DNA of 64,000 nucleotides, taken from Acidimicrobiia bacterium. Its GTDB lineage: Bacteria > Actinomycetota > Acidimicrobiia > Acidimicrobiales > Bin134. A program made the translations under genes and the position numbers. Of this stretch, positions 2,838 through 21,347 are shown piece by piece. The notes below the pieces were generated by a model, which saw nothing but the letters and a program-made list of their open reading frames with translations, had not been told where the DNA came from and did not search any database. Location of the stretch: assembly GCA_022822265.1 (NCBI GenBank), contig JAJECA010000027.1, forward strand, positions 1 to 64,000, read 5' to 3'. Position 1 is the stretch's first letter. Each line of letters starts with the position of its first letter.

Positions 2838-3030
2838 CCCTGGGCGGTTTTTTCAGGGGATGCCCCCTCTATGTTTGAAACTCCGTCACAGACCTGCAAA
2901 AATAGCTCCGTGCTGAGCCAGGGTCAGGCCCAGCACGGCTGAGCGGGGTCATCCGGCTCCGTGCCCTTAAGGGGTGTCGGCCACCTGATATGGTTTTGGA
3001 ATTCCAGGCCCGTCTGATAGAAAGTTGTCC

Positions 3031-6000
3031 ATGATGATGCTTCACTCGGTTTGGTCCGGCGGTGGGAGTGCTGCTGCTCGTCGGAAGGTAATGACTTTGC
3101 TGGCGCTTCTGGCGTTGGTGGCAAGTGTGCTGGTCTGGGCGTCGCCTGGATCGCAGGCGCAGACCAACCAGACGCCGCTGGCCGTCGCAAGCGTTGCTAC
3201 GGCTGGCACTGGGGGCAATGCAGTGGTTGCACACCTAGACGGGTTCCTCGCGAATCCGTCTGGCCCTATTGGGACGGCTGCCACCTCATCCACGGTCACG
3301 ATCACCCTTGACGGTTCTGGCAGTGCCGACAACGACGGCACTGTCTCGCTGTACAACTGGGAGATTCTGACAGGGCCCTACGATTGGATCTCACCGACTG
3401 AGGTAAGCGGTACGGCCTCGAACGCTACGTTCGAGATGCCGTCGCAGGCATTTGTCGCCAGCGTGCGCGACGATGATCCCCAGAAGTATGAGATCACCGC
3501 CCAGTTGACGATCACCGACGACGACGGCGCCACGGCCACCGACACTGTCACCATCTACATCAACCAGCGGCCCACCGCCACCATCGGCATTTACGCCGGT
3601 CTGCGGGACCCCAACGTTGTTGCCGATGCTGACACGACCACCAGGGATCTCTATTCCATTCCCGGCGTGATTGACGGGCCCGGCGAGAATGGGAATGCAG
3701 ACAACGAGTGGGATGTCGTCGGAGGCGCATACGTTCAATTGAACGGCTTCGCCAGCTCCGATCCCGACAACGTCGGCGGCTCTCCTGCGAGCTATAGCTG
3801 GGAGCTGGTCACGCCAGGCACCGCCCCCACCGGCGTCAACGGTACGGCTGCCAATGGCCCGACATTCGTAGTCGGTGCTCTCGACAACACCACCGGCGAT
3901 ACCACAACGTTCGGAGGCACTGAACTAGTAGACATTGTCCAGCCTCCTGGAGTCGGAAATAGGCACACGCTCTATTACCGCCTGACCGTGTGCGACCGGG
4001 GAACCACTGACACGCCTGCCGCTTGCAACACCACCGATAATCCCAGCTTGGCAAGCCGCTCGATAATCAAGGTCGTGGTTCACGACACCTCAGCGGCACC
4101 CGAGATGGACATAGGTGCGGGCCTGACGGCAACCAGCCAGGGCCGCGGCGACACCGCGCCGCAAGGCACCGTTGGTGCGATCACCGGCGTTGAGAACCAG
4201 TTCATCGTTTCCGCTGGCTCAACCGTGTTGCTGACTGCCACCGTAGACAACACGTCGCGGTCTATGGGTGACCATACCTTCAGGTGGGTTGGCGCCTCGC
4301 AGCAGCCCACTTTGACACCGGCGACGCTCTCAGCGACCATTACTACCCAGGCCACGGTCAGGATTCCTGGGGACGCTGAAGACGGCGACACCATCGACGT
4401 CTCGGTCGTAGCCATCAATAACGGCTCCAGGCTGTCTTCAACTACCGCGATTCAGCTGCTGGTCGGCTCCAACAGGCGGCCCACCGCTCAAGGAGTTCCC
4501 ATCAATTCGGGCACCGTCAGCGTGGCGGCCTTGCATCAGCTGGGGATTCCCCCGCTCTCGGTCCACAGCATCACCGACGGTTGGCAGAACCCGAGGGACG
4601 GCTCGACCGTCACCCTGCGCGGCGTTGCCACCGATCCTGATGGCAACCCCCCGATCACCTCCTGGGTCTTGCGAGAGGCAGAGGCAGGCCAGGTCTACTC
4701 TGAGACAGCACCATCACCAAACCCCTTCAACGGTGTAGACCTCGACGGCGACGGGGCAACTACTACTGCCAGGGTTGACGCTGATAAGGCTCTGCAAACC
4801 CTTGTCGAAAGGTGGCTGGAGTCCGATGACACCACCACTCCCACCAAAGCGCAAGTAGCATCTCAGGTGCTGTCTGCCCTTGGAAGCCTGCTCGGTGATG
4901 CGGAAACTCCAGAAGATCCGCTGATCGAGCTGAATGGTGCCTTCACCCCCACGGTTTCGTTCGAGGTTCCGAACCTTAAGAACTCCGTGCCCGCGAATGC
5001 TTCCGCTACCCCACCTGTCGTCGCTGTGAACAACAACAGGGGCACCTTGATGCTGTTCAGCGTGGTTGACGCCAACGGTGTTGCTTCTGCTCAGTTCATC
5101 TATGTCCTCATCAATGCTGACGATGATGCTCCGAGCGCCGACGCTGGGGATGACTTCCAGGTCGAGGCCGGTGGATTTGCCCGGCTGAACGGTTCGGGCA
5201 GCTCCGATGCCGACGTTCAGGATCGGGTGAGCTATCGCTGGGACTATGTAGGTGCGACCATGGATCCGCTGCCGAATCAGCGTCCCCCGCTGACCGATGA
5301 CGAAATTGATCAGCTCACCGGCTGGGTCCTCAGGCCTGCGACTGCCGCTGAAGCCAATGAGCCCGGATTGGTCCGAGACTCGGATGGCAACCGCTACAAG
5401 TACATCGTGAACTCAGCGGGCAATCTCGTCAGCGACGCCGACGTTGCTGACGGCAACGGTGCCGATGAGCTTGACGGCGGGTTTGATTCCGCCTCCGCTG
5501 GCGGCAAGCTCTTGGGCAGGAACTCGGCTTACCCGTGGTTCGATGCGCCTGAGTTCTCGGCCTTCAACGACGTCAAGCTGCGCTTCAGGCTGAACGCCCG
5601 TGATTCCGCAGGCACGGTTCTGAACGGTGATGGCAACGTCGCCGACAGTACCCTCGCATCGCTCGATGAAGCCAACGTCGGAGCGGACTTGAACGACAAT
5701 GGTGTAGCTACTGACACTGGAATCGCCAGCGTCGATGAAGCCCTGCTCAGCTTGGACTTGAACAACGACGGTGACGCTTTGGACACCGTGGACCTAGCTA
5801 CTGACAATGCCAATGAGGCCAACGTCAGCGCAGTTGACGAGGATGAGGTGATCGTCACGGTGTCGAGGCGTTACTTCTCCGGCAACGTGCCGAGCCCGGA
5901 CTTCTGCACCAACCAGAGCTTGGGCGGCCCGTCCACCTTCCCGTTCGACCAGGACGGCGACGGTGTGGCTGATGTGTGCTCGCTGAACACCACCCGCCGG

Positions 6001-6810
6001 GCCACGGTGGCTCGCCAGAACGCTCTGGAGAACCTGGCCGGCGTGTTCCCGAATCAGTTCCGTGCTGCGGTGCTGGCGGTGTGCGAGAACGCAGTGTTCA
6101 AGCAGACCGATTGGCAGCTCCTCGGAGATGAGGCCGACGATCTGGACAACGATGCCTGCGAGACCACGAGGGTGAGTCCGCCGCCGGCGCCGGTTGATCC
6201 TGCCATCGCCGACGTGTTCTTCTCCGGTGTGATCACTAGCCAGGACTTCTGCACCAACCACAGCCTGGGCGGTGCCCGCACCTACGCCAACGACGTCGAT
6301 GGCGACGGTGTGGCCGACCAGTGCTCACTGTCCACCACCCGTCGTGAGGCGGTTGCCCGCCAGCGGGCCCTGGGCACCTTCAACGTGAGCCTCTCCTCTG
6401 TGGAACGGCGCACGTTGGCAGACCTCAGCCTCTTTGTTGCACTCGAAGCCAAGGTTGCGGCGGCTGATGCTGCGAGTGGATCAACCACTGCCAGCATCGC
6501 CGACGCCGCCAGCGGTCTGACAGAAGACGAACAAGCCGATTACGCCCGGATCTTCGTCGACTATGTCGGGCGAGACGGTGTGACGGTGGTGGCCTTCGCC
6601 ACGAGGATCACCGCCGAAGAGCTGGCTACTTTGAACGGTTCGCTTGGTGTAGTCAGTGCCAAGGCCACTCTTGCGACTCGTTACAACAATGCTCTGCTGG
6701 CAGAGTGTCGAGCCCTGGGTACCCAGGACTTCGGCGATGCCGCCAGTGCCCTGGCCCGGGACGAGTGCAACCCGAGAACACCTGTTGAGACCGGGTTGCC
6801 TGAGAGCTAA
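3031..6810 (+). CDS. secreted PKD/Ig-like repeat protein with two SLGG/TRRE modules (family member 2)
   Basis: About 1259 residues from ATG 3031. A TTG two codons upstream (3025) is possible, but AGAAAG sits at a good distance before the ATG. Signal peptide with GGGSAAARRK n-region and GSQAQ cleavage site. Several PKD-like domains follow, including the family hallmarks VIDGPGENGNxDNEWDV and VVHDTSAAPEM. A stretch rich in D-x-N-x-D-G loops (about residues 860-940) resembles dockerin/EF-hand calcium loops. Two C-terminal modules begin near residues 947 and 1062 (YFSGNVPSPDFC, FFSGVITSQDFC). The second module carries a roughly 100-residue helical insert rich in Ala, Asp and Glu. It ends about 32 nt before a stem-loop shared with members 3 and 4. 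Role unknown; probably a surface or secreted structural protein. Confidence 0.85.
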   Translation: MMMLHSVWSGGGSAAARRKVMTLLALLALVASVLVWASPGSQAQTNQTPLAVASVATAGTGGNAVVAHLDGFLANPSGPIGTAATSSTVTITLDGSGSADNDGTVSLYNWEILTGPYDWISPTEVSGTASNATFEMPSQAFVASVRDDDPQKYEITAQLTITDDDGATATDTVTIYINQRPTATIGIYAGLRDPNVVADADTTTRDLYSIPGVIDGPGENGNADNEWDVVGGAYVQLNGFASSDPDNVGGSPASYSWELVTPGTAPTGVNGTAANGPTFVVGALDNTTGDTTTFGGTELVDIVQPPGVGNRHTLYYRLTVCDRGTTDTPAACNTTDNPSLASRSIIKVVVHDTSAAPEMDIGAGLTATSQGRGDTAPQGTVGAITGVENQFIVSAGSTVLLTATVDNTSRSMGDHTFRWVGASQQPTLTPATLSATITTQATVRIPGDAEDGDTIDVSVVAINNGSRLSSTTAIQLLVGSNRRPTAQGVPINSGTVSVAALHQLGIPPLSVHSITDGWQNPRDGSTVTLRGVATDPDGNPPITSWVLREAEAGQVYSETAPSPNPFNGVDLDGDGATTTARVDADKALQTLVERWLESDDTTTPTKAQVASQVLSALGSLLGDAETPEDPLIELNGAFTPTVSFEVPNLKNSVPANASATPPVVAVNNNRGTLMLFSVVDANGVASAQFIYVLINADDDAPSADAGDDFQVEAGGFARLNGSGSSDADVQDRVSYRWDYVGATMDPLPNQRPPLTDDEIDQLTGWVLRPATAAEANEPGLVRDSDGNRYKYIVNSAGNLVSDADVADGNGADELDGGFDSASAGGKLLGRNSAYPWFDAPEFSAFNDVKLRFRLNARDSAGTVLNGDGNVADSTLASLDEANVGADLNDNGVATDTGIASVDEALLSLDLNNDGDALDTVDLATDNANEANVSAVDEDEVIVTVSRRYFSGNVPSPDFCTNQSLGGPSTFPFDQDGDGVADVCSLNTTRRATVARQNALENLAGVFPNQFRAAVLAVCENAVFKQTDWQLLGDEADDLDNDACETTRVSPPPAPVDPAIADVFFSGVITSQDFCTNHSLGGARTYANDVDGDGVADQCSLSTTRREAVARQRALGTFNVSLSSVERRTLADLSLFVALEAKVAAADAASGSTTASIADAASGLTEDEQADYARIFVDYVGRDGVTVVAFATRITAEELATLNGSLGVVSAKATLATRYNNALLAECRALGTQDFGDAASALARDECNPRTPVETGLPES

Positions 6811-6842
6811 ACCAAAATCTGGATCCATATCTGGATGACTTC

Positions 6843-6880
6843 GGACCGGTCCGGCTCCCCACGGGGGGCCGGGCCGGTCC
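6843..6880 (+). terminator. GC-rich stem-loop after family member 2
   Basis: GGACCGGTCCGGCTCC pairs with GGGGCCGGGCCGGTCC across a short loop, with one wobble and one mismatch. It lies 32 nt after the stop. There is no U-tract, so it is either an actinobacterial-type terminator or an mRNA 3' stabiliser. The same element, and its upstream TCTGGATGACTTC-like lead, follows member 3 and, inverted, member 4. Confidence 0.6.
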
Positions 6881-7001
6881 GCGTCTACCGGGCAGTCTGA
6901 TTGACGTCCACCGCGGACGAGTAGCACGAGACCTCTGACAGCTCCAGAAACAAAAGCGCCCGGCATTCCCGGAAAGAGGTCTCATAATCGGGCCTCTACC
7001 A

Positions 7002-10000
7002 GTGTGTTACAAGGCTGGCGGTGGGAGTGCTACTGCTCGTCGGAAAGCAACGGTCATGCTGGCGCTCTTGGCGCTGGTGGCAAGCGTGCTGATCTGGGCG
7101 GCGCCCAGTTCTCAGGCGCAGAGCAACCAGGCGCCATTCGCCGATGCAGGTTCTGATCAGACATTGAACCCAAGCACTCCAGGCACAACCGTCACAGTCG
7201 GACTAGAAGGTACTGCGAGCATTGATATTGACGGTGCTACTCCTCCGGCCGGCATTACTGGCTGCTTAGGTTGCTCGTTCAAGTGGGAGATCGAGACGGG
7301 TCCTTACGACTGGATTGAGATCAGCAACGACGATAACGCGGGTGACGGCGATACAACAGACACCCCAGATCTCGGTGCCGACCCCAGTTTCAATATGCCT
7401 TCGGAGGCATTTGTTGACAAGGTGAGCGACAGCGATCCCCAGAAATTCGAGATCGTGGTGCGGTTGACGGTCACCGATAACGACGGTGCCACCGACAGCG
7501 ACACCGTGAGCATCTTCATCAACCAGCGGCCCGTAGCCGACATCCAGCTCTACGCCGGCCTGCGCGATGAGGATATCGTGGATGCCGATCTCGGCAAGAT
7601 GGGCCACTTCCCCATCGACGCAGTGATCGACGGGCCGGGCGAGAACGGCAACCGCGACAACGAGTGGGACATCATGGAAGGGGCATGGCTGCAACTGGAC
7701 GGCTCCGCCAGCACCGATGAGAACCCCGCCAGCGGCAAGCCAAGTGTGTACCAGTGGAGTTTGGAGCGGCCAGCTTCTGTAGCAGGGTACAGCGCCCCCG
7801 CAGCCACTGCTTCTGCTACCGGGCAACTTCTGGAGGTTGCCGTTGCCGCTGACACTGATGGTGACTCCAATACCGGTAACACCAGCGGCGAAGACAACGT
7901 TACGGTCATCAGCTTTGGTGACTTGAACGATGATGGGGATACTGCCGATGCCAACGAATCGCTCACCGTTGCGACTTTGCCCGAAGTTAAGCCCAACGCG
8001 CCTCAAACTGTGTTCTATCAGCTGACAGTGTGCGACAGTCCTGACGATCCCGCGCCTTTGTCAGACATCACAACCGCAGCTAACTGCACCAACGGCCGGA
8101 CAGGTGCCACGCTGATTCGCATTGTGGTCCACGACACCTCGGCCACCCCTGAGGTGGAGATCGGTGCTGCTTTGACTGCTGCGAGCACAGCGCGTGGCGA
8201 CGCCGATCCTCAGGAGACCGTCGGCGAGTTCACCGGCGTTGAGAACCGGTTCATCGTCGGCGCCGGCTCCACCGTGCTGCTGACCGCCACGGTGACCGAC
8301 GACGATCAGTCCTCCGGTCACACTTTCCGGTGGAGCGGTGCAAACGCGGTTTCCGGCACCACCAGCACGGCCACGGTCAGGGTTCCCGCTGATGCCGATG
8401 ACGGCGACACCATCGACGGATCGGTGACGGTGACCGACGCCACCAGGATCTCGGTGACCACCGAATTCCAGTTGCTGGTCGGCGAGAACACAGAGCCGAC
8501 CGCTGGTGGGGTTGAGGCCAATGTCGGGCTTGTTGGTGGCCCCCTCTCTGTCCACCAAATCACCGATGGTTTCCAGAACCGCAAGGACGGCTCGACCGTG
8601 ACCTTGCGTGGCGTAGGCAATGACGCTGACGGCGACTCCATCATCACCGCATGGGCCCTGCGTGAGGCGACGTCAGATGTAATGGTCACCGAGGGAGCTG
8701 TCCCAACACCGACAACTGCTAATCCTAGAGCCACCGCAGCTCGAGATTTGAATGGTGACGGCGATACCAATGACACGTTTGATGGCAATTCAGCTCTACA
8801 GGCGATAATCGAAGCCTGGATGGCGGCCAAGTCTGCTGATCCTTCTGTTCAGGCGGATATTGCTACAGCTACTGCTCAAGCGTTGGGGATCTTCGGCATG
8901 GTTGCAGCTGATGGCCAAGGGGCCGAGGACCCGCTGTTTGAGTTAGAAGGTGCCCTCACTGACACAGTTTCATTCGAGGTTCCGAATCTGGAGAACGGCG
9001 AAAACGCAGGTACCTTGTTGCTGTTCAGCGTGATCGACTCCAAGGGCGTAGCTGCGGCTCAGTTCGTTTACATCTACGTCACTGCTGACGATGATCCGCC
9101 TGACGCCAAGGCTGGCGACGATCAGCAGGTCGAGCCCGGGGCTTTCGTGAGGCTGAACGGCTCCGCCAGCTCCGATCCCGACGTGGGCGACGACGTCACC
9201 CACAAATGGGAGTATGTCGGCGCGACCGTGGACCCGGCCCCGGACCAGCGCTCGCCGCTGACCGCCGCTGAGATCGAAGAGCTCGACGGCTGGATCCTGG
9301 ATGCCGACAGCAGCACTCCGGGCAGTCCCGCCTACATCGTGAACGCCGCCGGCTTGCTCACAGGCGAAAGCGACAACCTCAAGAGCACGACCAGCGCCTA
9401 CCCGTGGTTCGACGCCCCCAAGCTCGGCGGGTTCAACGACATCAAGCTGACCTTCAAGCTGCACGTGAAGGACGAGCCAGGCACCGACCTAGACGGCGAT
9501 GGCAACACCTCGGACACATTCACAGGCTCAGGCTCGCCCGTAGTGTTTGACGAGACAACTGACAGTGTTGACTGGAATGGTGATGGCGACGAACTCGACA
9601 TCGATGCTGTTCCTAATGAAACTGCTCTTGGTCTTGACCTGAATGGTGACGGCGACGCCGCCGATAAAAGTGTCATCACCGATATCGACGAGGCGAATGT
9701 GGCTGCGGTCGATTCCGATATTGTGACGATCACGATTGTCAATGTGTATTTCTCCGGTGATATCCCCGGTCCGGGCTTCTGTGCCAACAAGAGCCTGGGC
9801 GGCCCGTCGACCTATCCGTTCGACAGCGACCGCGACGGCGTGGCCGATGTCTGCGCCTTGAACACCACCCGCCGGGCGACGGTGGCCCGCCAGAACGCCC
9901 TTGACGCCCTGGCAAACCTGAACCCGGGCGAGTTCCGGCAGGCGGTGCAGGATGAGTGCGATGAGCCGGGCTTCAAGCAGGGGCAGTATGGCGACGATCC

Positions 10001-10604
10001 CGACGACCTGGCCAGCGATGCCTGCGAGACCGGCCGGGTGAGCCCGCCGCCCGCCGGCGTGGACCCGGCCACCGCCGACGTGTTCTTCTCCGGCGTGATC
10101 ACCGGTGCGGACTTCTGCACCAACCACAGCCTGGGAGGCGCCCGCACCTATCCCAACGACATCGACGGCGACGGCGTGGCCGACCAGTGCTCGCTGTCAA
10201 CCACCCGCCGAGAGGCCATCGCCCGCCAACGGGCCCTGGACACGTTCATCGTGACCTTCTCGGGGGCCGACCAAGATGAGTTGGACGATCTCAATGACTT
10301 GCTTGCTCTTTCACTTCTCGGCAATAGCCGGGCAGGCGACGACATCACTGACTACAGCGACCTCTACAACCAGTATGTTGCAACTTCCGCCAACCATGCG
10401 ACTGATCTCACTCCTAGTGAGCAGACTGACGTGGAAGCCGCAATCAAGGGTCTCGAGGATTTGGAGGCGAGCGCCAGCCGCTATTCCAATGCCTTGGCCG
10501 CTCAGTGTCGGGCTTTGGGCACCCAGGACTTCGGCGACGCCGCCAGCGCCCTGGCTCGGGATGCATGTGTCACGACACCCGACACAGGTGCACCTCTGAG
10601 CTAA
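7002..10604 (+). CDS. secreted PKD/Ig-like repeat protein with two SLGG/TRRE modules (family member 3; expressed side of a putative invertible pair)
   Basis: 1200 residues from GTG 7002. No Shine-Dalgarno lies just before the GTG, and CATAAT at about 6983 could be a -10, so the mRNA may be nearly leaderless. Signal peptide: MCYKAGGGSATARRK, a hydrophobic core, then SSQAQ. Layout matches member 2: PKD-like domains, VIDGPGENGNRDNEWDI, VVHDTSATPEV, a DLNGDGD-type calcium-loop cassette (about 825-910), then two modules at about 915 and 1027, the second with a helical insert. Only the first five codons lie outside a 92-bp perfect inverted repeat (7017-7108) shared with the oppositely oriented member 4. 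Inversion between the repeats would therefore replace almost the whole protein while keeping the start. Function unknown. Confidence 0.85.
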   Translation: MCYKAGGGSATARRKATVMLALLALVASVLIWAAPSSQAQSNQAPFADAGSDQTLNPSTPGTTVTVGLEGTASIDIDGATPPAGITGCLGCSFKWEIETGPYDWIEISNDDNAGDGDTTDTPDLGADPSFNMPSEAFVDKVSDSDPQKFEIVVRLTVTDNDGATDSDTVSIFINQRPVADIQLYAGLRDEDIVDADLGKMGHFPIDAVIDGPGENGNRDNEWDIMEGAWLQLDGSASTDENPASGKPSVYQWSLERPASVAGYSAPAATASATGQLLEVAVAADTDGDSNTGNTSGEDNVTVISFGDLNDDGDTADANESLTVATLPEVKPNAPQTVFYQLTVCDSPDDPAPLSDITTAANCTNGRTGATLIRIVVHDTSATPEVEIGAALTAASTARGDADPQETVGEFTGVENRFIVGAGSTVLLTATVTDDDQSSGHTFRWSGANAVSGTTSTATVRVPADADDGDTIDGSVTVTDATRISVTTEFQLLVGENTEPTAGGVEANVGLVGGPLSVHQITDGFQNRKDGSTVTLRGVGNDADGDSIITAWALREATSDVMVTEGAVPTPTTANPRATAARDLNGDGDTNDTFDGNSALQAIIEAWMAAKSADPSVQADIATATAQALGIFGMVAADGQGAEDPLFELEGALTDTVSFEVPNLENGENAGTLLLFSVIDSKGVAAAQFVYIYVTADDDPPDAKAGDDQQVEPGAFVRLNGSASSDPDVGDDVTHKWEYVGATVDPAPDQRSPLTAAEIEELDGWILDADSSTPGSPAYIVNAAGLLTGESDNLKSTTSAYPWFDAPKLGGFNDIKLTFKLHVKDEPGTDLDGDGNTSDTFTGSGSPVVFDETTDSVDWNGDGDELDIDAVPNETALGLDLNGDGDAADKSVITDIDEANVAAVDSDIVTITIVNVYFSGDIPGPGFCANKSLGGPSTYPFDSDRDGVADVCALNTTRRATVARQNALDALANLNPGEFRQAVQDECDEPGFKQGQYGDDPDDLASDACETGRVSPPPAGVDPATADVFFSGVITGADFCTNHSLGGARTYPNDIDGDGVADQCSLSTTRREAIARQRALDTFIVTFSGADQDELDDLNDLLALSLLGNSRAGDDITDYSDLYNQYVATSANHATDLTPSEQTDVEAAIKGLEDLEASASRYSNALAAQCRALGTQDFGDAASALARDACVTTPDTGAPLS
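7017..7108 (+). repeat. left arm of a 92-bp perfect inverted repeat
   Basis: From GGCGGTGGGAGTGC to GGCGGCGCCCAG this arm is identical to the reverse complement of 14571-14662. It encodes the n-region and hydrophobic core of the signal peptide in both member 3 and member 4. Identity stops abruptly on both sides. Member 2 has a related but diverged copy near 3057-3148. Confidence 0.85.
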
Positions 10605-10637
10605 CCCAATATCCAGTTCCATAATCTGGATGACTTC

Positions 10638-10675
10638 GGACCGGTCCGGCTCCTCTCGGGGGGCCGGACCGGTTC
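10638..10675 (+). terminator. GC-rich stem-loop after family member 3
   Basis: GGACCGGTCCGGCTCC pairs with GGGGCCGGACCGGTTC around a short loop, 33 nt after the stop. It is nearly identical to the element after member 2. No T-run follows. Likely terminator or 3' stabiliser. Confidence 0.6.
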
Positions 10676-10832
10676 GCGTCTGGGCTGCGCTAACGCTTGG
10701 CCCGTAGAGAGCTCTGACTCGGAACCTGCCACCCGCTGGCAGCAAGGTAGTTTCAGCGGTGGGTTCTTTTGTACGAAGAACATGCCGATCGGGCCTGTGC
10801 CCACCACACCCGGTAAATCCGGCTGTTGCAGA

Positions 10833-10905
10833 CGTGTGTTTTCCGGGATAGTCACCGATCCGAAGGATTGCACCAATGGGAGCTTGGACGGCACCAGGCT
10901 GCGGA
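10833..10905 (+). pseudogene. decayed fragment of an SLGG module
   Basis: The translated stretch RVFSGIVTDPKDCTNGSL then DGTRL matches the module start (VFFSGVITGADFCTNHSLGG in member 3) over about 24 codons. The calcium loop and TRRE part are gone. It shows that another family copy once lay between members 3 and 4. Confidence 0.5.
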
Positions 10906-10973
10906 GCGCGATACGGGGATCTCGTTTGTCGAAATGCGAACAGCGCCCTATTCGGCACTGGCAAATGGTGCCG

Positions 10974-11162
10974 TTAGGCGGCCTCGGCGGGTGGGTCGAT
11001 GTTTAGCTTGCTCTCGATGCGGGCCAGGCGCTCGCTTTGGGCCATGGCAAGATCGTAAACGCGGTCCAAACGGGTGAAGATCATGCGGAAAAAGACAGCG
11101 TGCAGGGTAAACAACCCGCCGCCGGTGATGCCGATCAGTGTGGTGGCCAGTGCACCGTTCAT
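10974..11162 (-). CDS. small single-pass membrane protein with coiled-coil tail
   Basis: 62 residues from ATG 11162, with GAGGGAG about 8 nt upstream, which favours this start over longer readings. Residues about 4-27 (ALATTLIGITGGGLFTLHAV onwards) form one membrane segment. The remainder is a heptad-like helix (RLDRVYDLAMAQSERLARIE) with a charged end. Size and layout resemble small holin-like or phage-associated membrane proteins, but no family was recognised. It sits between the tails of members 3 and 4, inside the segment bounded by the 92-bp repeats, so it would invert with them. A truncated ORF with a similar start (MNDAIVSTLIG) occurs at 21207. Confidence 0.6.
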   Translation of the reverse strand: MNGALATTLIGITGGGLFTLHAVFFRMIFTRLDRVYDLAMAQSERLARIESKLNIDPPAEAA

Positions 11163-11235
11163 TTGTTTCTCCCTCGAAGAGGAGCGTGGAGGGGGAACTG
11201 AATAAACGCAGTGTAGCAGCAGTGGTCCCAGACGC

Positions 11236-11273
11236 GGACTGGTCCGGCCCCCCGAGAGGAGCCGGACCAGACC
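11236..11273 (-). terminator. GC-rich stem-loop after inverted family member 4
   Basis: Read on the minus strand, GGTCTGGTCCGGCTCC pairs with GGGGCCGGACCAGTCC, 33 nt after the member 4 stop. It is the same element, including the TCTGGAT lead, as after members 2 and 3. Compensatory changes (CCGGTCC to CTGGTCC with GGACCAG) keep the stem paired, which supports selection on the structure. Confidence 0.6.
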
Positions 11274-11305
11274 GACGTTATCCAGATATGGATCCAGATT
11301 TTGGA

Positions 11306-14300
11306 TCAGCTCAGAGGCGACCCGGTAGATGGCCTCGGAACACATTCATCCCGAGCCAGGGCACTGGCGGCATCGCCGAAGTCCTGGGTACCGAGAGCCC
11401 GGCACTCCGCAGCCAGGGCGTTGGAATAGCGGGCGGCAGGGCCGTCTCGCTTAGCTGTGAGCTCTGCGATCCTGGCATCCGCTGTGGCCTTCTGCGCAGG
11501 ATTCAGATCACCCGCGTCAACAGCACTGCCCAGCGTTGCGTCCACATGTGCCCTAAAGAGGTTGTTGTACTCAACCTGAGTGTTGTCAGTGCCACGTGCA
11601 GCAGACCCATCATCGGAGAGGTCTACCAGGCGGCTGAGGCCGGCCAGCTCTGCTGCCTCAGCAGCCGAGAAGGTAACGATGAAGGTTTCCAGGGCCCGCT
11701 GGCGGGCAATGGCCTCACGCTTGGTGGTGGCCAGTGAGCACTGGTCGGCAACACCGTCCCCGTCAGCGTCGTTGGCATAGGTGCGGGCACCGCCCAAGCT
11801 GAAGTTGGTGCAGAAGTCCGCGCCAGGAATTGTGCCGGAGAAGAAGACGTCGGCCGTTGCCGGATCGGCGCCGCGCGGCGGAGGCGACACTCGCCTGGTC
11901 TCGCAAACATCGTTTGCCAAGTCATCAGGGTCGTCGCCATAGTTCGTGGCCTTGAAGCCCGGAGCATCGCAAACTGCCAGCACCTCGGACCGGAAACCAC
12001 CCGGGCTCAGGTTGGCCAGGGTCTCCAGAGCGTTCTGGCGGGCCACCGTGGCCCGGCGAGTGGTGTTCAGTGAGCAGGTGTCAGCCACTCCGTCGCGATC
12101 ACGGTCGAACGGATAGGTCTGTGGGCCGCCCAGGCTCTGGCCGAAGCAGTAATTCGGGCCGGGGATGTTGTCGGAGAAGAACCGGTTGGTAACGGCGATG
12201 GTCACCGTGTCGGTGGCGAATGCCCTTATGGTCGCTTCATCGACAGCTGTATTAGCAAGGTCTAGTGCATTGTCTATGACGAGATTGCTGTCCAAATCTA
12301 GGCCAAATTGAGCTTCATCAACTGTGGTTATAGCTGCGTCGAGCTTGTCGCCATCGCCGTTCAAGTCCATACCGAGAGTGACCTCGCTGAGGGTCGAAAC
12401 ATTCGAGTTGTCGGTAGCACCATCGCCATCAACATCCCTGGCCGCTTCATCGTCAAATACAGCCAACCTGAAGGTCAGTTTGACATCGTTGAATCCGGTG
12501 AGCTTGGGAGCATCGAACCATGCATAGGCGGTATCTGCGGCCTTGAGGTTGTTGCTGGACTTCCCAGCCAGGAGCTCGCCATCCGAATTGACGATGTAGT
12601 CGAACCCAGTGGCCGTCTTTTCCAAGATCCAGCCGTCGAGTTCCGTGATCTCGGATGTGGACAGCGGAGCACGCTGGTTCGGTGCGGGATCCATGGTCGC
12701 ACCGACATAGGTCCACCTGTACTTGAGGGAATCATCAACATCAGGATCGGAACTGCCCGAACCGTTCAGCCGGACAAAAGCTCCCGGTGCAACCTGCTGG
12801 TCGTCGCCAGCTCTGGCGGCCGGTGAATTGTTGTCAGCGTTCACGTAGACGAAAACGATCTGAGCGTCTGCGACGCCATTGGAGTCAATCACGCTAAATA
12901 GCAACAGGGTGCCCTTGTCTGTGCCGGTCTCCAGATTCGGAACCTCGAATGACACCGTGTCGGTGAGCGCACCGTTCAACTCAAACAATGGCTGCTTGGG
13001 CTCCCGCATGTCTGCCAGTGCCGCAGGGACGGTTGCTAGGGCAGCGAGATCTGCTGCTGCCTTGTCGGCATCTTTGTTGTCTAGCCAGGTCTTGATTGCT
13101 GTGGTCAGAGCGCTGTGACTTGGTCCCTCGCGTAGAGCCCACGCCGTGATGATGGAGTCGCCATCGGCGTCATTGCCAACGCCGCGCAGGGTCACGGTTG
13201 AGCCGTCCCTGGGATTTTGGAACCCATCGGTGATGCTGTGAACGTACAGGAGCGGATTCCCATCAGCGTCAATCGACCCTTGATTTGCCTGAACCCCCCC
13301 TGCGGTCGGGGGTGTGTTCTTACCGACTAGCAGCTGAATCGGAGTGGTATAAGGAGTTCGCCTGGCGTTGTCAATCACCGTCACCGAAACATCTATCGTG
13401 TCTCCGTCTTCGGCATTGGCAGGAATCCTGACCCTGGCCTCAGCCGGCTCGTGGACAGCAGTGTCCCCAACGGCGACAGCACCGACCTGTGTGGCGCCAC
13501 TCCACCGGTAGGTGTAGCCGGCAGCGGTGGTCATATCGACCCCACCCACTTTCACGGTGGCGGCCAGCTGCACGGTTGAACCAGCAGCAACAATGAACTG
13601 ATTCTCAACGCCAGTGATCTGGGCAACTGTGCTCTGAGGCTTGGCGTCACCCTCGTTGAAACTGGTGTCGGACAGCCCACGCCCCGGCTGGCCGACGGCA
13701 GCGCGGTTCCCAAGCCCGATGCTCACTGCTGGAGCAGTCGAAGCGTCGTGGACCACGATACGGATTATCGACGTGCCGTCTCGGCTGTTGTCATGGGCCG
13801 TCAAGGAGTAGACCACCGTGACCGGCGCATTAGGCGCAACATCGGGAAGGACCTCAACATTACTGACAGAGTCATCGGACAGAGTGGTTGGCTCAGCAAG
13901 GTCTCCCACTTCAAACTGTGCCGTAGTAGACCTAGCTTGCGTACCTCTGATGTCACTTGTGCCGGAAGGGGTGACCAAAACCTGGGTCCACGTATATTCC
14001 AGCGTCACGGTGGGATCCTCGTCGGTGCTGCCGGAAGCATCGAGCTGGACGTAGGCCCCTTCCATGATGTCCCACTCGTTGTCGCGGTTGCCGTTCTCGC
14101 CCGGCCCGTCGATTACCGCAGGAATGCTGTAGCGCTCTTTGGTGCTGGCATCGGGATCCAATAGGGTCCTATCCCTCAAGCCGGCATACAGCTGGATGTC
14201 GGCGACCGGCCGCCGGTTGATGTTCACGCTCACAGTGTCCGAATCGGTGGCCCCCCTGTTATCGGTGACCGTCAATCGAATATTGATCACAAACTTCTGC

Positions 14301-14623
14301 GGATCGTCGTCGTTTACCTTGTCGACGAACGCTTCTGACGGCATATCGAACTGGGCGGTGTCCGCATTGGTGTCGTTTTCGATCGTAATCCAGTCGTACG
14401 GACCTGTCTCCACTTCCCACTTGAACGTGCAATCGCCACAGTTGGCAGAACTATCAACATCAAAGCTGCCCGTACCGTTGAGGCCGACATCAGCTGTTCC
14501 TGGGTCTTTGCTGCCGGCAACGTCAAGAACCGCGACAGCGTTGGGCGCTTGATTGTTTTGCGCTTGCGAGCTGGGCGCCGCCCAGATCAGCACGCTTGCC
14601 ACCAGCGCCAAGAGCGCCAGCAT
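11306..14623 (-). CDS. inverted, start-less PKD/Ig-like repeat protein with two SLGG/TRRE modules (family member 4; silent side of the putative switch)
   Basis: Coding homology to member 3 runs from 14662 to the stop at 11306, about 1119 residues: signal peptide ending SSQAQNN, PKD-like domains, VIDGPGENGNRDNEWDI, VVHDASTAPAV, a DLNGDGD-type loop cassette and two modules with a helical insert in the second. The first in-frame ATG is at 14623 and gives a signal peptide without its basic n-region. Upstream of 14662 the open frame is only the antisense of another gene fragment. The gene therefore seems to lack its natural start, ribosome site and promoter, while its body has no frameshift or stop. 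An intact body without a head is what a silent cassette would look like. Confidence 0.7.
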   Translation of the reverse strand: MLALLALVASVLIWAAPSSQAQNNQAPNAVAVLDVAGSKDPGTADVGLNGTGSFDVDSSANCGDCTFKWEVETGPYDWITIENDTNADTAQFDMPSEAFVDKVNDDDPQKFVINIRLTVTDNRGATDSDTVSVNINRRPVADIQLYAGLRDRTLLDPDASTKERYSIPAVIDGPGENGNRDNEWDIMEGAYVQLDASGSTDEDPTVTLEYTWTQVLVTPSGTSDIRGTQARSTTAQFEVGDLAEPTTLSDDSVSNVEVLPDVAPNAPVTVVYSLTAHDNSRDGTSIIRIVVHDASTAPAVSIGLGNRAAVGQPGRGLSDTSFNEGDAKPQSTVAQITGVENQFIVAAGSTVQLAATVKVGGVDMTTAAGYTYRWSGATQVGAVAVGDTAVHEPAEARVRIPANAEDGDTIDVSVTVIDNARRTPYTTPIQLLVGKNTPPTAGGVQANQGSIDADGNPLLYVHSITDGFQNPRDGSTVTLRGVGNDADGDSIITAWALREGPSHSALTTAIKTWLDNKDADKAAADLAALATVPAALADMREPKQPLFELNGALTDTVSFEVPNLETGTDKGTLLLFSVIDSNGVADAQIVFVYVNADNNSPAARAGDDQQVAPGAFVRLNGSGSSDPDVDDSLKYRWTYVGATMDPAPNQRAPLSTSEITELDGWILEKTATGFDYIVNSDGELLAGKSSNNLKAADTAYAWFDAPKLTGFNDVKLTFRLAVFDDEAARDVDGDGATDNSNVSTLSEVTLGMDLNGDGDKLDAAITTVDEAQFGLDLDSNLVIDNALDLANTAVDEATIRAFATDTVTIAVTNRFFSDNIPGPNYCFGQSLGGPQTYPFDRDRDGVADTCSLNTTRRATVARQNALETLANLSPGGFRSEVLAVCDAPGFKATNYGDDPDDLANDVCETRRVSPPPRGADPATADVFFSGTIPGADFCTNFSLGGARTYANDADGDGVADQCSLATTKREAIARQRALETFIVTFSAAEAAELAGLSRLVDLSDDGSAARGTDNTQVEYNNLFRAHVDATLGSAVDAGDLNPAQKATADARIAELTAKRDGPAARYSNALAAECRALGTQDFGDAASALARDECVPRPSTGSPLS

Positions 14624-14662
14624 GACCGTTGCTTTCCGACGAGCAGTAGCACTCCCACCGCC
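14571..14662 (-). repeat. right arm of a 92-bp perfect inverted repeat
   Basis: The reverse complement is identical to 7017-7108. It forms the very start of the member 4 homology. Just outside it (14663-14667) the minus strand reads GGTCC, as in member 2 at 3053-3057, so the older junction may have involved a member-2-like sequence. Confidence 0.85.
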
Positions 14663-15307
14663 GGACCCGACTTCTGCGCCAACCGCAGCTTGGGCGGGCC
14701 TCGCACCTATGCGTTCGACAGCAACGGCGACGGCATCGCCGACACCTGCTCGCTGCGCGACACCCGTAGGGCCACCGTGGCCCGCCAGAACGCTCTGGAG
14801 ACGCTGGCCAGCTTGAACCCTGTCGAGTTTCGAGCTGCGGTGCTCGAGGAGTGCGAAGACGAGGAGTTCTTGGAGAAGAACTACGGCGACCGGGCGGCCG
14901 ATTTGGCCAACGACGTGTGCGCAACCGAGAGGGTGAGCCCGCCTCCGCCGCCTGTTGACCCCGCCATCGCTGCCACCTTCTTCTCCGGGGTGATCGACGG
15001 CCCCCACTTCTGCACCAACCGGAGCCTGGGCGGGCCCCGGACCTATGCGTTCGACAGCCCGCCCGCCGACGGCGTGGCCGATGTGTGCTCGCTTCCCTAC
15101 ACCCGCCGCGAGGCCATCGCCCGCCAACAGGGCTTGGAGGCCGCCTTCGCCGAGCATCTCGGGTTCAAAGACGCCCTGGCCTTTGCCTGCTCGGCCCTCG
15201 GCACCATCGACTTCGGCGACGATGATGAGGACCTGGCCGTGGACGCCTGCAACCCCCCACCTGAACCTTCAGACTTCGGCCAGCCCCTGCCCACCTCCTC
15301 AAGTTGA
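14663..15307 (+). pseudogene. headless C-terminal fragment of a family member (two SLGG/TRRE modules)
   Basis: The frame starts mid-module at GPDFCANRSLGG directly against the inverted repeat and runs to TGA 15305-15307. It encodes the rest of one module (NGDGIADTC, TRRATVARQNAL) and a complete second one (FFSGVIDGPHFC, YTRREAIARQ), ending PLPTSSS. All PKD-like domains and the signal peptide are missing. An open frame can be traced further left to 14549, but that part is antisense to member 4. This is the truncated 3' end of a gene cut at the repeat boundary. Confidence 0.75.
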
Positions 15308-16122
15308 GCAACCCCCGCCGGTTCTCGCTGATGTGGGCACTGGCGGCGCTGCTGGTTGCCTCGGCAGTAGTCGGTGCCGGCACCAGCGCCGCTCAGGTCC
15401 AGAACCAGCTCGCCCCCGTCGCCATCGCCTCTTAGGAGGTGACCACCGATGCCACCGACACCACCCCGGCGGAGATCACTCTCGACGGGTCCGACAGCTT
15501 CGATCCCGACGGCGAGCTCACTAACCAGAGCTTCACCTGGGAACTGCTGCGCTTCAAGGGGGCGGCCTCGGTTGCCCAGTCGCTGCCCATTGGCGCCTAG
15601 GGCCAGTCGGTTGTCGGCCAGAGGTTCCTGAGCACCGACGAAGATCCCGTCACGCCAGCCAGTTGGCGCACCGAGACGGTGGCCCGGCTCCCCTTCGTGA
15701 ACGGGGAGGACAACGAGTCTTTCTTGGTGTAATACCGGCTGACGGTTACCGACGCAGATGGGGCCAGTGCACGCCAGATCGTCAAGATCGTGATACAGCA
15801 CATTCACGACGACCCCGAGGAGCCGGAGCTGCGCTACTCGGGGGTCATCGACGGCCCCGACTACTGCATCAACTTGAGCTTGGGCGGACCTCCCACCCAC
15901 CCGTTCGACCGCGACGGCGACGGGGTGGCCGACGTGTGCGCCCTGCCCTACACCCGCCGAGAGGCCGTGGCCCGCCACAACGCCCTGCGGGCCGCCGTTG
16001 CCGAACACCCCCGGTTCGGTTTCGCCTTCTTCACCGCGTGCTCCGCCCTGGCCACCACCGACTTCGGCGACCCTCCCGACCAGTTGGCTGTCGACGCCTG
16101 CAACCTCCGCCTGGCGACATAG
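15304..16122 (+). pseudogene. shrunken family member with three in-frame stop codons
   Basis: From TTG 15304 (overlapping the previous stop as TTGA) one frame of 273 codons reads signal peptide (RRFSLMWALAALLVASAVVG, then AQVQNQ), a partial PKD-like domain (DGSDSFDPDGEL), a fragment like member 7 (RFLSTDEDP, RLTVTDADG) and one C-terminal module (RYSGVIDGPDYCINLSLGG, YTRREAVARHNAL). The frame is never shifted, but it is broken by TAG 15433-15435, TAG 15598-15600 and TAA 15730-15732. The last replaces the TAC tyrosine seen in member 7. Large internal deletions are evident against member 7. Because TAG also ends normal genes here, these stops are taken as decay. Confidence 0.75.
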
Positions 16123-16214
16123 GCCAGACTCTTCTCACCACTCCTCAAAGAGTGAGAGCCACAATGACTGTGGATCGATATTTATTCTCACCTATTCTGT
16201 TGTTTAGAAGTCAA

Positions 16215-19010
16215 ATGGAACTGGGTGTGCGAAAGCCTTGGATCTGCGCGGCATGGCTGCTGGTCGGCTCGATGTTGGTATTGGCCGACGCTTCGCGTGC
16301 CCAGGCCCAAACCCATCTGCCCCCCATCGCCATCGCCTCCGTTGAGCTGACCACCAAGGCCACCGACACCACCGCGGCGGTGGTCACGCTGGATGGCTCA
16401 AACAGCTTCGATCCCGACGGGAGCGTTGTGAGCTATCGGTGGGAGATCTTGACCGATGCCTACGACTGGTTGGAGATCACCCATGCCAACCCGCTCTCCC
16501 CCACGGCCACCGTCGAGCTGCCCAGCCGGGCGCTGATCGAGCGGTTGGGCTTCTCCATCGAGTTCCGCCTCACGATCACCGACAACGGCCGTCCTGCCGC
16601 CACCGACAGCGTGACCGTCGAGTTCCAGATAAACCAGGCTCCGGTGATCGACATCGAGGTAACGGCCAAGCTGTTCAACCGCGACGACGAACGCGATATC
16701 GACGACAACCGCAACGGCATGGTGGACGAGAATGAGGAGCGCTATCCCTTCGAGGGCGTGGTCCACCGTCCCGGCGAGCAGGGCAACTCCGACACCGAGT
16801 GGGACGTGCGGGCCGCCACGCTTTTGGTCATAGACGCCTCAGGCACCGTCGATCCCGGAGACGAGCTGTCCGACGATAACTTCAGGTGGGAGAGGCTGGT
16901 GCACAGCGACGTGCCCCAGGTAACCCAGTCGCTTCCCGGCGATGCCACCGGCGTGCGGATGCTCAGCACCGACGAGGATCCCAACGTGGCGGGCAGCGTG
17001 AGCTCAGAGACGGTGGCCCGGCTGCCGTTCGTGCTCGGGGTGGGAACCGAGCCCTATGTGGTTTACTACCGGCTGACGGTTACCGACGAGGATGGCCTAT
17101 CCGTCACTGAGTTCGTCAAGATCGTGTTCGAAGACTTCCACGATGATCCCGAGGTGGAGATCAGCCATCCAGAGTCCGATCCCGACGCCGCCACCGAAGA
17201 GGATCGCCGTGCAGGAGTGCTGGAGGCGGGCGAAGACCGCTACGTGGTGTCGCCTGAGGCCGCTGAGGACGGCATCACCCTCACTGCGGTGGCCAGCGGC
17301 GACGGGGCCCTCCGCACCGCTGCGCTGGTCCACAGGTGGTCGGGCACCGGCGTCGAGCCCAGCGACGACAACCTGCCCGGACCCCAGACCACCGCGGTTT
17401 TCACCATCCCCGCTGGCTACGAAGAGGGCGACTCGTTCTCGGTGGACGTGCTGGTGGCAGATCCCGACGGCCTGCGGGCCAGGGAATCGGTGGAACTGGT
17501 GGTGGCCGAGACCACCGCGCCCAGCGCCGTCGCGCCCGAAGACATCGACACCCCCGACGGCATCGACGGCGGGTACCCGCTGACCGATCCCCCCTCGGGC
17601 ATCGTGAATCTGCGGGGCATCGGTTTCGATCCAGACGGCGACGAGATCACCTACCAGTGGGAGCAGACCGACAGCCGTGGCGAGGAGCTGCCCGGCCGGT
17701 TCCGGGGGTCGAGGATCTTGCTGGTGGACGCCGACACTGCGGATGCGCCATTTCGGCTGCCCGAGGTGACAAGGGGCACCCAAGAGATCGTGTACGTGAA
17801 GTTCACCGTCACCGACCAGTGGGGCGTGTCCGACAGCGATCTGGTGCAGATCACCATCCGCGACGGCGACGACGACCTCAGGGCCCGGGCCGGCGTGGAC
17901 CAAAACGCCCTTCCCGGCAGTTTCGTGCAGCTCATCGGCGACTTCAGCTCCGGGCTGGTGAGCGCCGATGCCCTTGAAGCGGTCACCTACCAGTGGGCCT
18001 ATCGGGGCATCGAGACCGATCCCCCTCTCGGGCTGCGCCTTGCGATAACCCCATCGGAGCGGGACCAGGGCTTTGTGGCCGGCGAGTGGTTCCCCGACGC
18101 CGACGGCACCTACGACCCCACTGCCGGAGGCCGCCTGAAGAACGCCGACGAGCCCTTCGCCTACTTCGACGCCCCCGATCTCTACGACTTCTACGGTGTG
18201 AAGCTCTTCTTCGACCTCACGGTGGCCTACCGGGACGAGGAGCACACCGACACCGTGGCCGTGACCGTGATCAAGGAATCGGGTCTGAGGTATTACTCCG
18301 GGCCCATCGACGGCCTCGACTATTGCAAGAACCAGAGCCTGGGCGGGCCGCCAACCTATCCCTTCGACAGCGACGGCGACGGGGTGGCCGACATATGCGC
18401 CGTCCAGGAGTCCCGCCGGGCCGCCGTCGCCCGCCAGATCGCCTTCGAGCAGCTCGCCATATTGAACATAGACCTGTTCGAGCAGGCCCTGATGAGCGTG
18501 CCCGACGACCCCGACACCGAAGACGTGGACGAGTCCACCGTTGGCGCCTGTGCCGCGGCGCCGGTTGATTTGGGCGACACCGAAGAGGCACTGGCCAAAG
18601 ACCTGTGCGGACGCTTCGCCACCGATCCCGACGTCGACCACGAGGTGGCTGCCATGCCCGAGCCAGTGGACCCCCCAGATGCCCGCAAGTTCTACTCCGG
18701 GACCATCGACAGCGCTTATTTCTGCGCCAACCACAGCCTCGGCGGCCCTGTCACCTACCCCTTCGACAGCGACGGCGACGGTGTGGCCGACACCTGCGCC
18801 CTGCCGTACACCCGACGAGAGGCGGTCGCCCGCCACAACGCCCTCCATGCCGCCTTCGCCGACCACCCCCAATACCCCGCCGCCCTGGCCGCCACCTGCA
18901 ACGCCCTGGGCACGCTCGACTTCGGCGACCCCTCCGAACAACTGGCCACCGACGCCTGCAACCCCGCCCCAACCGACTTCGGCAACCCCCTCCCCGACGC
19001 TGGTTCTTGA
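16215..19010 (+). CDS. secreted PKD/Ig-like repeat protein with two SLGG/TRRE modules (family member 7)
   Basis: 931 residues from ATG 16215, preceded by AGAAG. An in-frame ATG at 16164 would add 17 residues before a normal signal peptide. The signal peptide is MELGVRKPWICAAWLL onwards, with SRAQAQ cleavage. PKD-like domains follow (SFDPDGSVVSYRWEIL, FRLTITDNG, GFDPDGDEITYQWEQ, KFTVTDQWG). The modules begin at about residues 694 and 828 (YYSGPIDGLDYC, FYSGTIDSAYFC). The first has an acidic insert before its last Cys. Member 7 resembles member 1 and the 15304 pseudogene more than members 2-4: it lacks the DLNGDGD loop cassette and the helical insert. Secreted, function unknown. It converges on the metalloprotease-like gene. 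Confidence 0.85.
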   Translation: MELGVRKPWICAAWLLVGSMLVLADASRAQAQTHLPPIAIASVELTTKATDTTAAVVTLDGSNSFDPDGSVVSYRWEILTDAYDWLEITHANPLSPTATVELPSRALIERLGFSIEFRLTITDNGRPAATDSVTVEFQINQAPVIDIEVTAKLFNRDDERDIDDNRNGMVDENEERYPFEGVVHRPGEQGNSDTEWDVRAATLLVIDASGTVDPGDELSDDNFRWERLVHSDVPQVTQSLPGDATGVRMLSTDEDPNVAGSVSSETVARLPFVLGVGTEPYVVYYRLTVTDEDGLSVTEFVKIVFEDFHDDPEVEISHPESDPDAATEEDRRAGVLEAGEDRYVVSPEAAEDGITLTAVASGDGALRTAALVHRWSGTGVEPSDDNLPGPQTTAVFTIPAGYEEGDSFSVDVLVADPDGLRARESVELVVAETTAPSAVAPEDIDTPDGIDGGYPLTDPPSGIVNLRGIGFDPDGDEITYQWEQTDSRGEELPGRFRGSRILLVDADTADAPFRLPEVTRGTQEIVYVKFTVTDQWGVSDSDLVQITIRDGDDDLRARAGVDQNALPGSFVQLIGDFSSGLVSADALEAVTYQWAYRGIETDPPLGLRLAITPSERDQGFVAGEWFPDADGTYDPTAGGRLKNADEPFAYFDAPDLYDFYGVKLFFDLTVAYRDEEHTDTVAVTVIKESGLRYYSGPIDGLDYCKNQSLGGPPTYPFDSDGDGVADICAVQESRRAAVARQIAFEQLAILNIDLFEQALMSVPDDPDTEDVDESTVGACAAAPVDLGDTEEALAKDLCGRFATDPDVDHEVAAMPEPVDPPDARKFYSGTIDSAYFCANHSLGGPVTYPFDSDGDGVADTCALPYTRREAVARHNALHAAFADHPQYPAALAATCNALGTLDFGDPSEQLATDACNPAPTDFGNPLPDAGS

Positions 19011-20990: not shown

Positions 20991-21327
20991 TTTTCCTCCT
21001 CAGATTGGTTTGCCTACGCAATGTTGCGCACAAAAAGGAATTTGAGTCAAAAGGAAAAAGGGCCCCTAAGTGGGAAAATTGTAAATTATTTTCCCACTTA
21101 GCCGTCCAACGCCACCTCACGGACCTCAGCGGAGGACACGAGCCCTGCTATATTGCCCGTTGCAGATCTTCCCCCAGAGCAACCCTCCGAATGGAGGGAG
21201 AATGCAATGAACGATGCGATCGTTAGCACTCTGATCGGAGCGGTGGGGAATGACCACGGTGAGCGCTTGAGCTACCTTCCAGGGATGCAGTCACACCTAG
21301 TGAGTATTCTCTGGGTTTTGGGAGGTC
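20991..21327. other. 337-nt divergent spacer upstream of the ATPase/protease pair
   Basis: AT-richer than its surroundings. It holds the ribosome site of the 20990 gene, the perfect inverted repeat 21066-21101, and most of a 46-codon ORF (21207-21347) with a good ribosome site. Promoters for both directions probably lie here, but none could be fixed. Confidence 0.45.
21066..21101. repeat. perfect 13-bp inverted repeat with AT-rich 10-nt loop
   Basis: CTAAGTGGGAAAA (21066-21078) and TTTTCCCACTTAG (21089-21101) are exact reverse complements around TTGTAAATTA. It may be an operator or a bidirectional hairpin between the divergent membrane-protein gene and the ATPase/protease genes. The A-run and T-run at the arm ends also fit a two-way terminator. 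Confidence 0.7.
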
Positions 21328-21347
21328 GTGCCAGTGGCTCGAAGTGA
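21207..21347 (+). CDS. 46-residue ORF, possible truncated small membrane protein
   Basis: ATG 21207 follows GGAGGGAG by 7 nt. The start MNDAIVSTLIGAVG resembles MNGALATTLIGITGGG of the small protein at 11162, and both have a GGAG-type site placed alike. After that the similarity ends and the sequence is not clearly membrane-spanning. It overlaps the ATPase start by 20 nt. It could be a relic, or a leader peptide for the ATPase gene. Confidence 0.35.
   Translation: MNDAIVSTLIGAVGNDHGERLSYLPGMQSHLVSILWVLGGRASGSK

Follow-up and report, generated by a model that had tools for sequence, protein, structure and literature searches.

When several homologous genes for large secreted proteins lie side by side, which of them is expressed, and how might another take its place? 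This question is raised by an array near the start of the window, which comprises positions 1-64,000 of a contig of 64,368 bases from an Acidimicrobiia bacterium (the assembly has 64 contigs and is 94.7% complete). Members 1 to 4 and 6 of the array encode large secreted proteins with PKD/Ig-like Pfam matches (Table 1). A preliminary description of this DNA had proposed that member 3 is expressed from a GTG codon at 7002 and is swapped with member 4 by a 7.6-kb inversion between repeats at their starts. We compared the array with its relatives in 22 genomes of the genus, including that of the window (G-numbers below designate these genomes). We consider it likely, though well short of certain, that the array is a locus with one expression site and silent cassettes, in which the bodies of large secreted PKD/Ig-like proteins are swapped by recombination at a core sequence.

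The leader, the core and the leaderless cassettes

When the 90 bases across the start of member 2 were searched for in the 22 genus genomes, 13 had exactly one full-length match each, and contig VXOZ01000335.1 (L092) carries the same leader. The core TCCGGCGGYGGGAGTGCT is where the leader joins a variable secreted PKD/Ig-like protein, and it was exact in nine of the 13 leader genomes; G004, G010 and G016 have variants of it, and the core of G002 is cut by a contig end. In an alignment of 14 rows (the 13 leader genomes and L092), 44 of the 47 columns without insertions or deletions between GTCTGATAG and the first G of the core were invariant in all rows, compared to 19 of 100 columns upstream. 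Because this invariance includes third codon positions, the leader DNA itself is probably constrained. L092 is titled as a Chloroflexi bacterium. Its DNA is approximately 91% identical to that of G008 over member 1. By this similarity the contig belongs to the genus, and its title is probably an error, through mis-binning or misnaming.

The position of the leader is also conserved. In 10 of the 13 leader genomes and in L092, 220-262 bp separate the end of the member 1 orthologue from the core; this gap, measured in all leader genomes except G010, amounts to kilobases in G004 and G016. The core sits in coding sequence, just before the hydrophobic stretch of the signal peptide. By these comparisons the leader-linked gene of the window is member 2 (core at 3058), not member 3, and member 2 is presumably the one expressed. 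The region contains eight promoter-like consensus matches, and shuffled sequences contained 2.4 on average. Rfam gave no match in 2780-3200 up to an E value of 0.5, and the leader RNA did not fold better than shuffles (z = 0.35, 1.46 and 0.00), leaving a structured leader RNA unsupported. Scans of IMG/VR with a long core pattern and with the leader returned no matches, and thus no sign of a viral carrier.

The window contains three sites that match the 18-bp core GGCGGYGGGAGTGCTRCT with at most two mismatches (3058 +, 7017 + and 14662 -), and none of 100 shuffles of the window contained three or more. The sites at 7017 and 14662 begin members 3 and 4 and belong to an inverted repeat that, as had been described, is perfect over exactly 92 bp, with differing flanks. 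The start of member 2 is 84% identical to this repeat over 89 bp, with 18 exact bases in common. All 30 third codon positions inside the repeat are the same in members 3 and 4. Outside it, third positions are 52% identical over 1,046 aligned codons, with 65.5% nucleotide identity overall, so the repeat reflects neither chance nor uniform divergence. We considered whether repeat identity might point to concerted evolution across the genus and rejected this as a general rule: identities within genomes ranged from 0.76 to 1.00 (12 pairs), and those between genomes had a mean of 0.80 and reached 0.99.

Across the 22 genomes there are 21 exact copies of the core, nine behind the leader and 12 without it. 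These counts exclude five matches with one mismatch; two of these were read (G018:C17 and G003:C13), and neither had a cassette start after the core. At all 12 leaderless sites, two of which are members 3 and 4, only zero to five contiguous bases left of the core are common with the leader, and 11-14 of 40 bases match it. A thirteenth leaderless cassette, in G004, lacks a readable left flank. Cassettes with different left flanks begin at the same point.

These results bear directly on the expression of member 3. The GTG at 7002 does lie in frame, five codons before the repeat, and the inverted repeat does carry the same frame in members 3 and 4. Member 3 is not alone in having a start codon outside the repeat, as had been stated, since member 2 has both TTG 3025 and ATG 3031. 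The 130 bp before the repeat of member 3, including GTG 7002, had no match in the 21 other genus genomes, whereas the leader of member 2 is nearly invariant, and no promoter-like site was listed on the plus strand between 6810 and 7017. Member 4 was correctly described as lacking a start region: its minus-strand frame is open from 11306 through the repeat to 15268, and beyond 14662 it runs antisense to a truncated gene, with no recognizable start region. An inversion between 7017 and 14662 would therefore only rearrange two leaderless cassettes, and we regard expression of member 3 from GTG 7002, switched by that inversion, as most improbable. What survives of the earlier proposal is a single site of expression, leaderless homologues with conserved 5' ends, and exchange through those ends; the choice of expressed gene and the inversion assigned to it do not. 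Judged from the genus-wide comparison, it appears to name the right kind of system but the wrong gene as expressed.

Exchange of bodies behind the leader

If members 3 and 4 were dead or dying tandem duplicates, their perfect repeat could be a recent gene-conversion tract, with no switching at all. Such decay would fit the absence of a leader or conserved start before either member, and one silent cassette is indeed broken: the leaderless body of G003 breaks off at codon 502. It is the only one of nine leaderless bodies visible over more than 400 codons to do so; six reach a stop near full length and two are open to a contig end. The ratio of nonsynonymous to synonymous substitution rates (dN/dS) was 0.25-0.33 in all 14 pairs of bodies, including four leaderless-leaderless pairs. 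In addition, the leader-linked bodies of G014 and L092 are relatives of member 3. We consider decay very unlikely, and members 3 and 4 are presumably intact silent cassettes.

Nineteen bodies, 10 leader-linked and nine leaderless, were placed in a tree built from their first 460 residues. Four of 23 bodies were dropped for length (G010_E, G013, G019_E and G019_S), and four further sites near contig ends were left out (G013_S, G002_S, G002_E and G005_Sc). Leader-linked and leaderless bodies were intermixed. The label changed seven times on the tree, compared to a mean of 6.6 with shuffled labels, and 387 of 500 shuffles were as low. A single clade of leader-linked bodies was rejected (approximately unbiased test, p = 2.6e-46); the bodies found behind the leader across the genus come from different lineages. 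The leader-linked bodies of G014 and L092 grouped with leaderless member 3 of the window, and member 4 grouped with a leaderless body of G001. In the tree of member 1, the window's species, G014, G013, G008 and L092 form one clade. Because the labels are intermixed and leaderless bodies keep their low dN/dS, bodies appear to move into and out of one expression site over evolutionary time, between species.

Arrays of the same kind were found elsewhere in the genus. One contig of G011 (C41, with the locus at 21107, 25301 and 34020) carries a leader-linked cassette (+), a silent cassette (+) and a silent cassette (-), followed by an integrase gene and dnaB (-). G004 has a convergent pair, and G005 has two leaderless cassettes in opposite directions. 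The G004 pair (contig L026), a leader-linked cassette and an inverted leaderless one, is 99% identical over 544 nt near the 3' ends (10698-11241 and 11870-12413), which indicates that bodies also exchange sequence away from the core. The dnaB gene of G013 (L163/L171, G013:C34 and C21) is 99% identical to that of G019, and member 1 of G013 groups with that of G014; all or part of the array may have passed from one species to another.

Several observations weigh against switching by core recombination. The leader is absent from nine of the 22 genomes. Two genomes assembled as single contigs have no second core: G015, which has the leader, and G007, which does not. The repeat copies of member 2 and of members 3 and 4 are only approximately 82-84% identical. 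The same body tree would also result from horizontal transfer or slow replacement, and the exchange that it shows is one over evolutionary time rather than within a population. The remaining objections concern the enzyme and are given with it below.

Proposed routes of exchange and a candidate recombinase

A single leader supplies the 5' DNA and the start codons, and under the reading that we favor, the body behind it would be the expressed cassette. Recombination at the core would swap bodies. Inversion between 3058 (+) and 14662 (-), approximately 11.6 kb, would join member 4 to the leader and reverse the orientation of members 2 and 3. The cores at 3058 and 7017 are in direct orientation, and recombination at this pair could delete member 2, so that member 3 would follow the leader.

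The preliminary description had found no invertase gene in the window, and neither did we. A search with PF00589 revealed tyrosine recombinases adjoining silent cores in relatives. G011, G019 and G002 encode integrases of 386-412 aa that are 88-90% identical to one another and have arm-binding, central and catalytic domains, P4-type by their Pfam domains. P4-type tyrosine integrases have R, HxxR, H and Y as catalytic motifs, and all three proteins retain these. The intact genes end 53 bp (G011), 53 bp (G019) and 77 bp (G002) before a silent core. In G001, a C-terminal integrase piece lies 103 bp before a core, and a full-length copy is on a contig that ends in the same 55-mer, so that here too a full integrase probably adjoins a silent core. 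In G013, a truncated copy is fused to the core. Serine recombinases (PF00239) were present in three of the 22 genus genomes, the window's not among them.

Somewhat less surely than the exchange itself, we suggest that the recombinase is, or was, the P4-type integrase beside the silent cores of sister species. Against this, the window's assembly has only a relative with 46% identity, on another contig; G003, which has a silent cassette, yielded no integrase at an E value of 0.001 in the homologue search; and the 180 bp downstream of the integrase relative in G004 (71%) contain no core. In addition, the natural target of the integrase may be dnaB, because the G011 integrase also adjoins the 3' end of dnaB and related insertions in G003 carry dnaB fragments. 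In the window's species, the integrase may have been lost, may lie in the unassembled part, or homologous recombination may be used instead. We also compared genomes with silent cassettes (integrase in seven of nine, counting remnants and G004) to those with a leader only (zero of five; Fisher p = 0.02). This comparison was post hoc and involves physically linked features, and we do not rely on it.

Homologous recombination or gene conversion could bring about the same cassette exchange with no dedicated recombinase, the integrase simply belonging to an island at the dnaB 3' end. We view this as a serious rival for the mechanism, possible though not the more probable account. It is consistent with the 92 identical bp of members 3 and 4 and the near-identical 3' segments of the convergent pair in G004. 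It is also consistent with the two cassettes of G019, on the leader side and the integrase side, which differ over the first ~207 bp and are then identical for at least 141 bp. The lack of a close integrase in the window's genome assembly, the dnaB 3' fragments that flank the G003 insertions and occur in G005, and the position of the G011 integrase point the same way. However, homologous exchange leaves unexplained why all 12 differently flanked leaderless sites have the same start point, and the integrases of G019 and G002 lie 53-77 bp from a core, with dnaB kilobases away.

A different role for the integrase, which we think rather unlikely, is cassette capture. The P4-type enzyme would use the core as its attachment site and insert or exchange whole bodies, including those of other species, behind one leader, with secondary sites giving new left flanks. 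The truncated gene beside member 4 would be an example of a secondary site; its relatives have GGNCCGG at the junction where the core has GGTCCGG.

Close to dnaB in the window (24779-26155 -), at its 3' end, PADLOC identified an IetA/IetS defense pair (21328-22326 + and 22245-24752 +). A block homologous to this region in G003 is flanked by dnaB 3' fragments, which suggests that the 3' end of dnaB is an integration hot spot.

Could the arrangement have been made by the assembler, with pieces joined or flipped at the repeat? In a short-read assembly, the orientation of the segment between two 92-bp arms could be arbitrary. A contig end fell within 350 bp downstream of eight of 25 core sites, where 0.37 would be expected with random ends, and the leaderless cassette of G004 ends inside the repeat. 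Contig ends in G013 and G019 share exactly 141 bases, and those in G001 and G004 exactly 55. Exact overlaps of this kind are typical of contig ends at repeats in de Bruijn assemblies, and ends at cores fit repeated or mixed sequence alike. On the other hand, the core, leaderless cassettes and inverted members recur independently in G011, G004 and G005, and the junction of member 4 cuts a gene that is longer in four relatives. We therefore regard an artifact as extremely unlikely.

Two contigs have further features at their ends. The leader-side contig of G002 (L039 end, G002:C3:135032) stops after GTGCT, just before a base that is G or A among cassettes. This would be expected from a branch in the assembly graph, with two bodies behind one leader; as a single case it is not proof. 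Contig L030 (G013:C8; 5,251 bases) has exact 141-base inverted ends (1-141 and 5111-5251) that code for the C-terminus of a cassette.

Comparison with known systems and organization of the array

The best-known examples of surface-protein switching at one expression site come from mycoplasmas and certain host-associated pathogens. The sap locus of Campylobacter fetus has one promoter and silent homologous surface-protein cassettes with long conserved 5' ends, exchanged by inversion. The present array resembles it in its silent homologous cassettes with conserved 5' ends, and in the one site of expression and the inversion proposed for it. It differs in that the perfect 5' repeat is only 92 bp and lies between two silent copies, the presumably expressed copy being approximately 16% different. 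A long 5' region common to expressed and silent copies, as in sap, was not found here (18 exact bases, and ~84% identity over 89 bp). In integrons and other cassette-capture systems, a tyrosine recombinase lies near one expression site and promoterless cassettes have a fixed left boundary, a layout that the array and its relatives resemble. Here the integrase is P4-type by its Pfam domains, and no attC-like array of small genes turned up, although none was searched for.

The closest parallels are in mycoplasmas and ureaplasmas. For vsa of Mycoplasma pulmonis and mba/UU172 of Ureaplasma, one report describes a promoter and 5' segment of an open reading frame (ORF) joined to alternative ORFs by inversion at short sites within the coding sequence (PMC3047005). 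The array shares with these systems the single segment, the alternative downstream surface-protein ORFs and the site inside the coding sequence. It differs in its host, an actinobacterial genus, in its PKD/Ig-like bodies of ~1,000-1,250 codons, in having a P4-type integrase nearby only in relatives, and in being known from sequence alone. The vpma locus of Mycoplasma agalactiae has one promoter and several homologous genes whose recombination sites lie within the 5' untranslated region (-1 to -72), and the adjacent gene for the tyrosine recombinase Xer1 was shown to be necessary (PMC2268961). Here too, homologous genes share a 5' site, and in sister species an integrase gene lies beside cores as xer1 lies beside vpma. 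In contrast to vpma, our core lies in coding DNA, the start is supplied by the leader, and the enzyme is a guess. In common with vsa, mba and vpma, we found a single leader per genome (13 of 22), leaderless homologues that bear the site, and different bodies at the site between species.

Inversion as such is not new to the phylum, since putative inversions were reported in three of 19 actinobacterial species (PMC5903667). In the literature on phase variation or inversion in Chloroflexi/Chloroflexota, sponge symbionts, Acidimicrobiia and Actinobacteria, we found no description of this locus in titles and the starts of abstracts, a search that most subscription papers fell outside. A rearrangement locus with one leader and multiple cassettes is thus new in host and detail and of a known kind. 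If the favored reading is true, proteins of more than 1,000 residues are switched in an uncultured actinobacterial genus, and their start segment stays the same at nearly every base from one species to another as the bodies turn over. This reading would also bear on surface variation of uncultured bacteria in the face of hosts, phages or predators, the presumed role of these proteins. The locus offers a precise site and, in sister species, a candidate enzyme.

The genus to which this applies is well delimited. A search of 60 genomes with member 3 found relatives in 22, all of the window's own genus, and in none of the 38 others. In a wider draw of 248 genomes of the order, relatives were found in nine, all of the same genus. 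WhiB was present in 22 of 22 genus genomes and, among 14 control genomes, matched only Corynebacterium, which identifies the genus as actinobacterial.

Table 1. Features of the array, in window coordinates.
Feature	Position	Strand	Basis or remark
Member 1, secreted PKD/Ig-like protein, constant upstream neighbor of the expression site	249..2837	+	orthologue position
Promoter-like site TTGAAA-17-AAAAAT, TG before second hexamer, upstream of leader	2875..2903	+	consensus match only
Expression leader, possible starts TTG 3025 and ATG 3031	3012..3057	+	near-invariant alignment
Core and repeat at member 2 start, 84% identical to 92-bp repeat	3058..3146	+	
Member 2, leader-linked cassette, presumably expressed	3031..6810	+	
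Inverted-repeat, terminator-like 3' end common to cassettes	6829..6886	+	repeat family D13
92-bp repeat at member 3 start	7017..7108	+	
Member 3, leaderless cassette, 1,195 codons open from core	7017..10604	+	
Terminator-like 3' end of member 3	10624..10681	+	
Small ORF	10974..11162	-	relative in G014
Terminator-like 3' end of member 4	11227..11287	-	repeat family I13
Member 4, leaderless cassette, 1,118 codons open from core	11306..14662	-	
92-bp repeat at member 4 start	14571..14662	-	
C-terminal part of small secreted-protein gene, 5' end missing, cut exactly at member 4 repeat (fragment gene)	14661..15307	+	
ORF with member 6, PKD-type secreted relative without core; recognizable protein begins well inside the ORF	15663..19010	+	

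The region left of member 1 lies beyond the start of the window's contig. The members share a repeated Cys-containing C-terminal domain (members 1-4 and 6) that had no match in Pfam or NCBIfam; an AlphaFold model from a seven-row, window-only alignment had a mean predicted local distance difference test score of 58.

The fragment gene has a longer 5' part in G014, G008, G003 and G013. In G014, the order is expressed cassette, terminator, small ORF and fragment gene. Relative to this order, member 4 and the small ORF of the window are inverted, and the core adjoins the fragment gene within its coding sequence. Such an inversion would leave a reciprocal junction, in which the 5' part lost from the fragment gene lies inverted next to member 3; none was found. 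Between the fragment gene and member 6 there is a degenerate copy of the C-terminal domain (15733-16119 +), and the DNA around it (15484-15987) matches part of an ORF of 588 codons in G003 with 86.5% identity.

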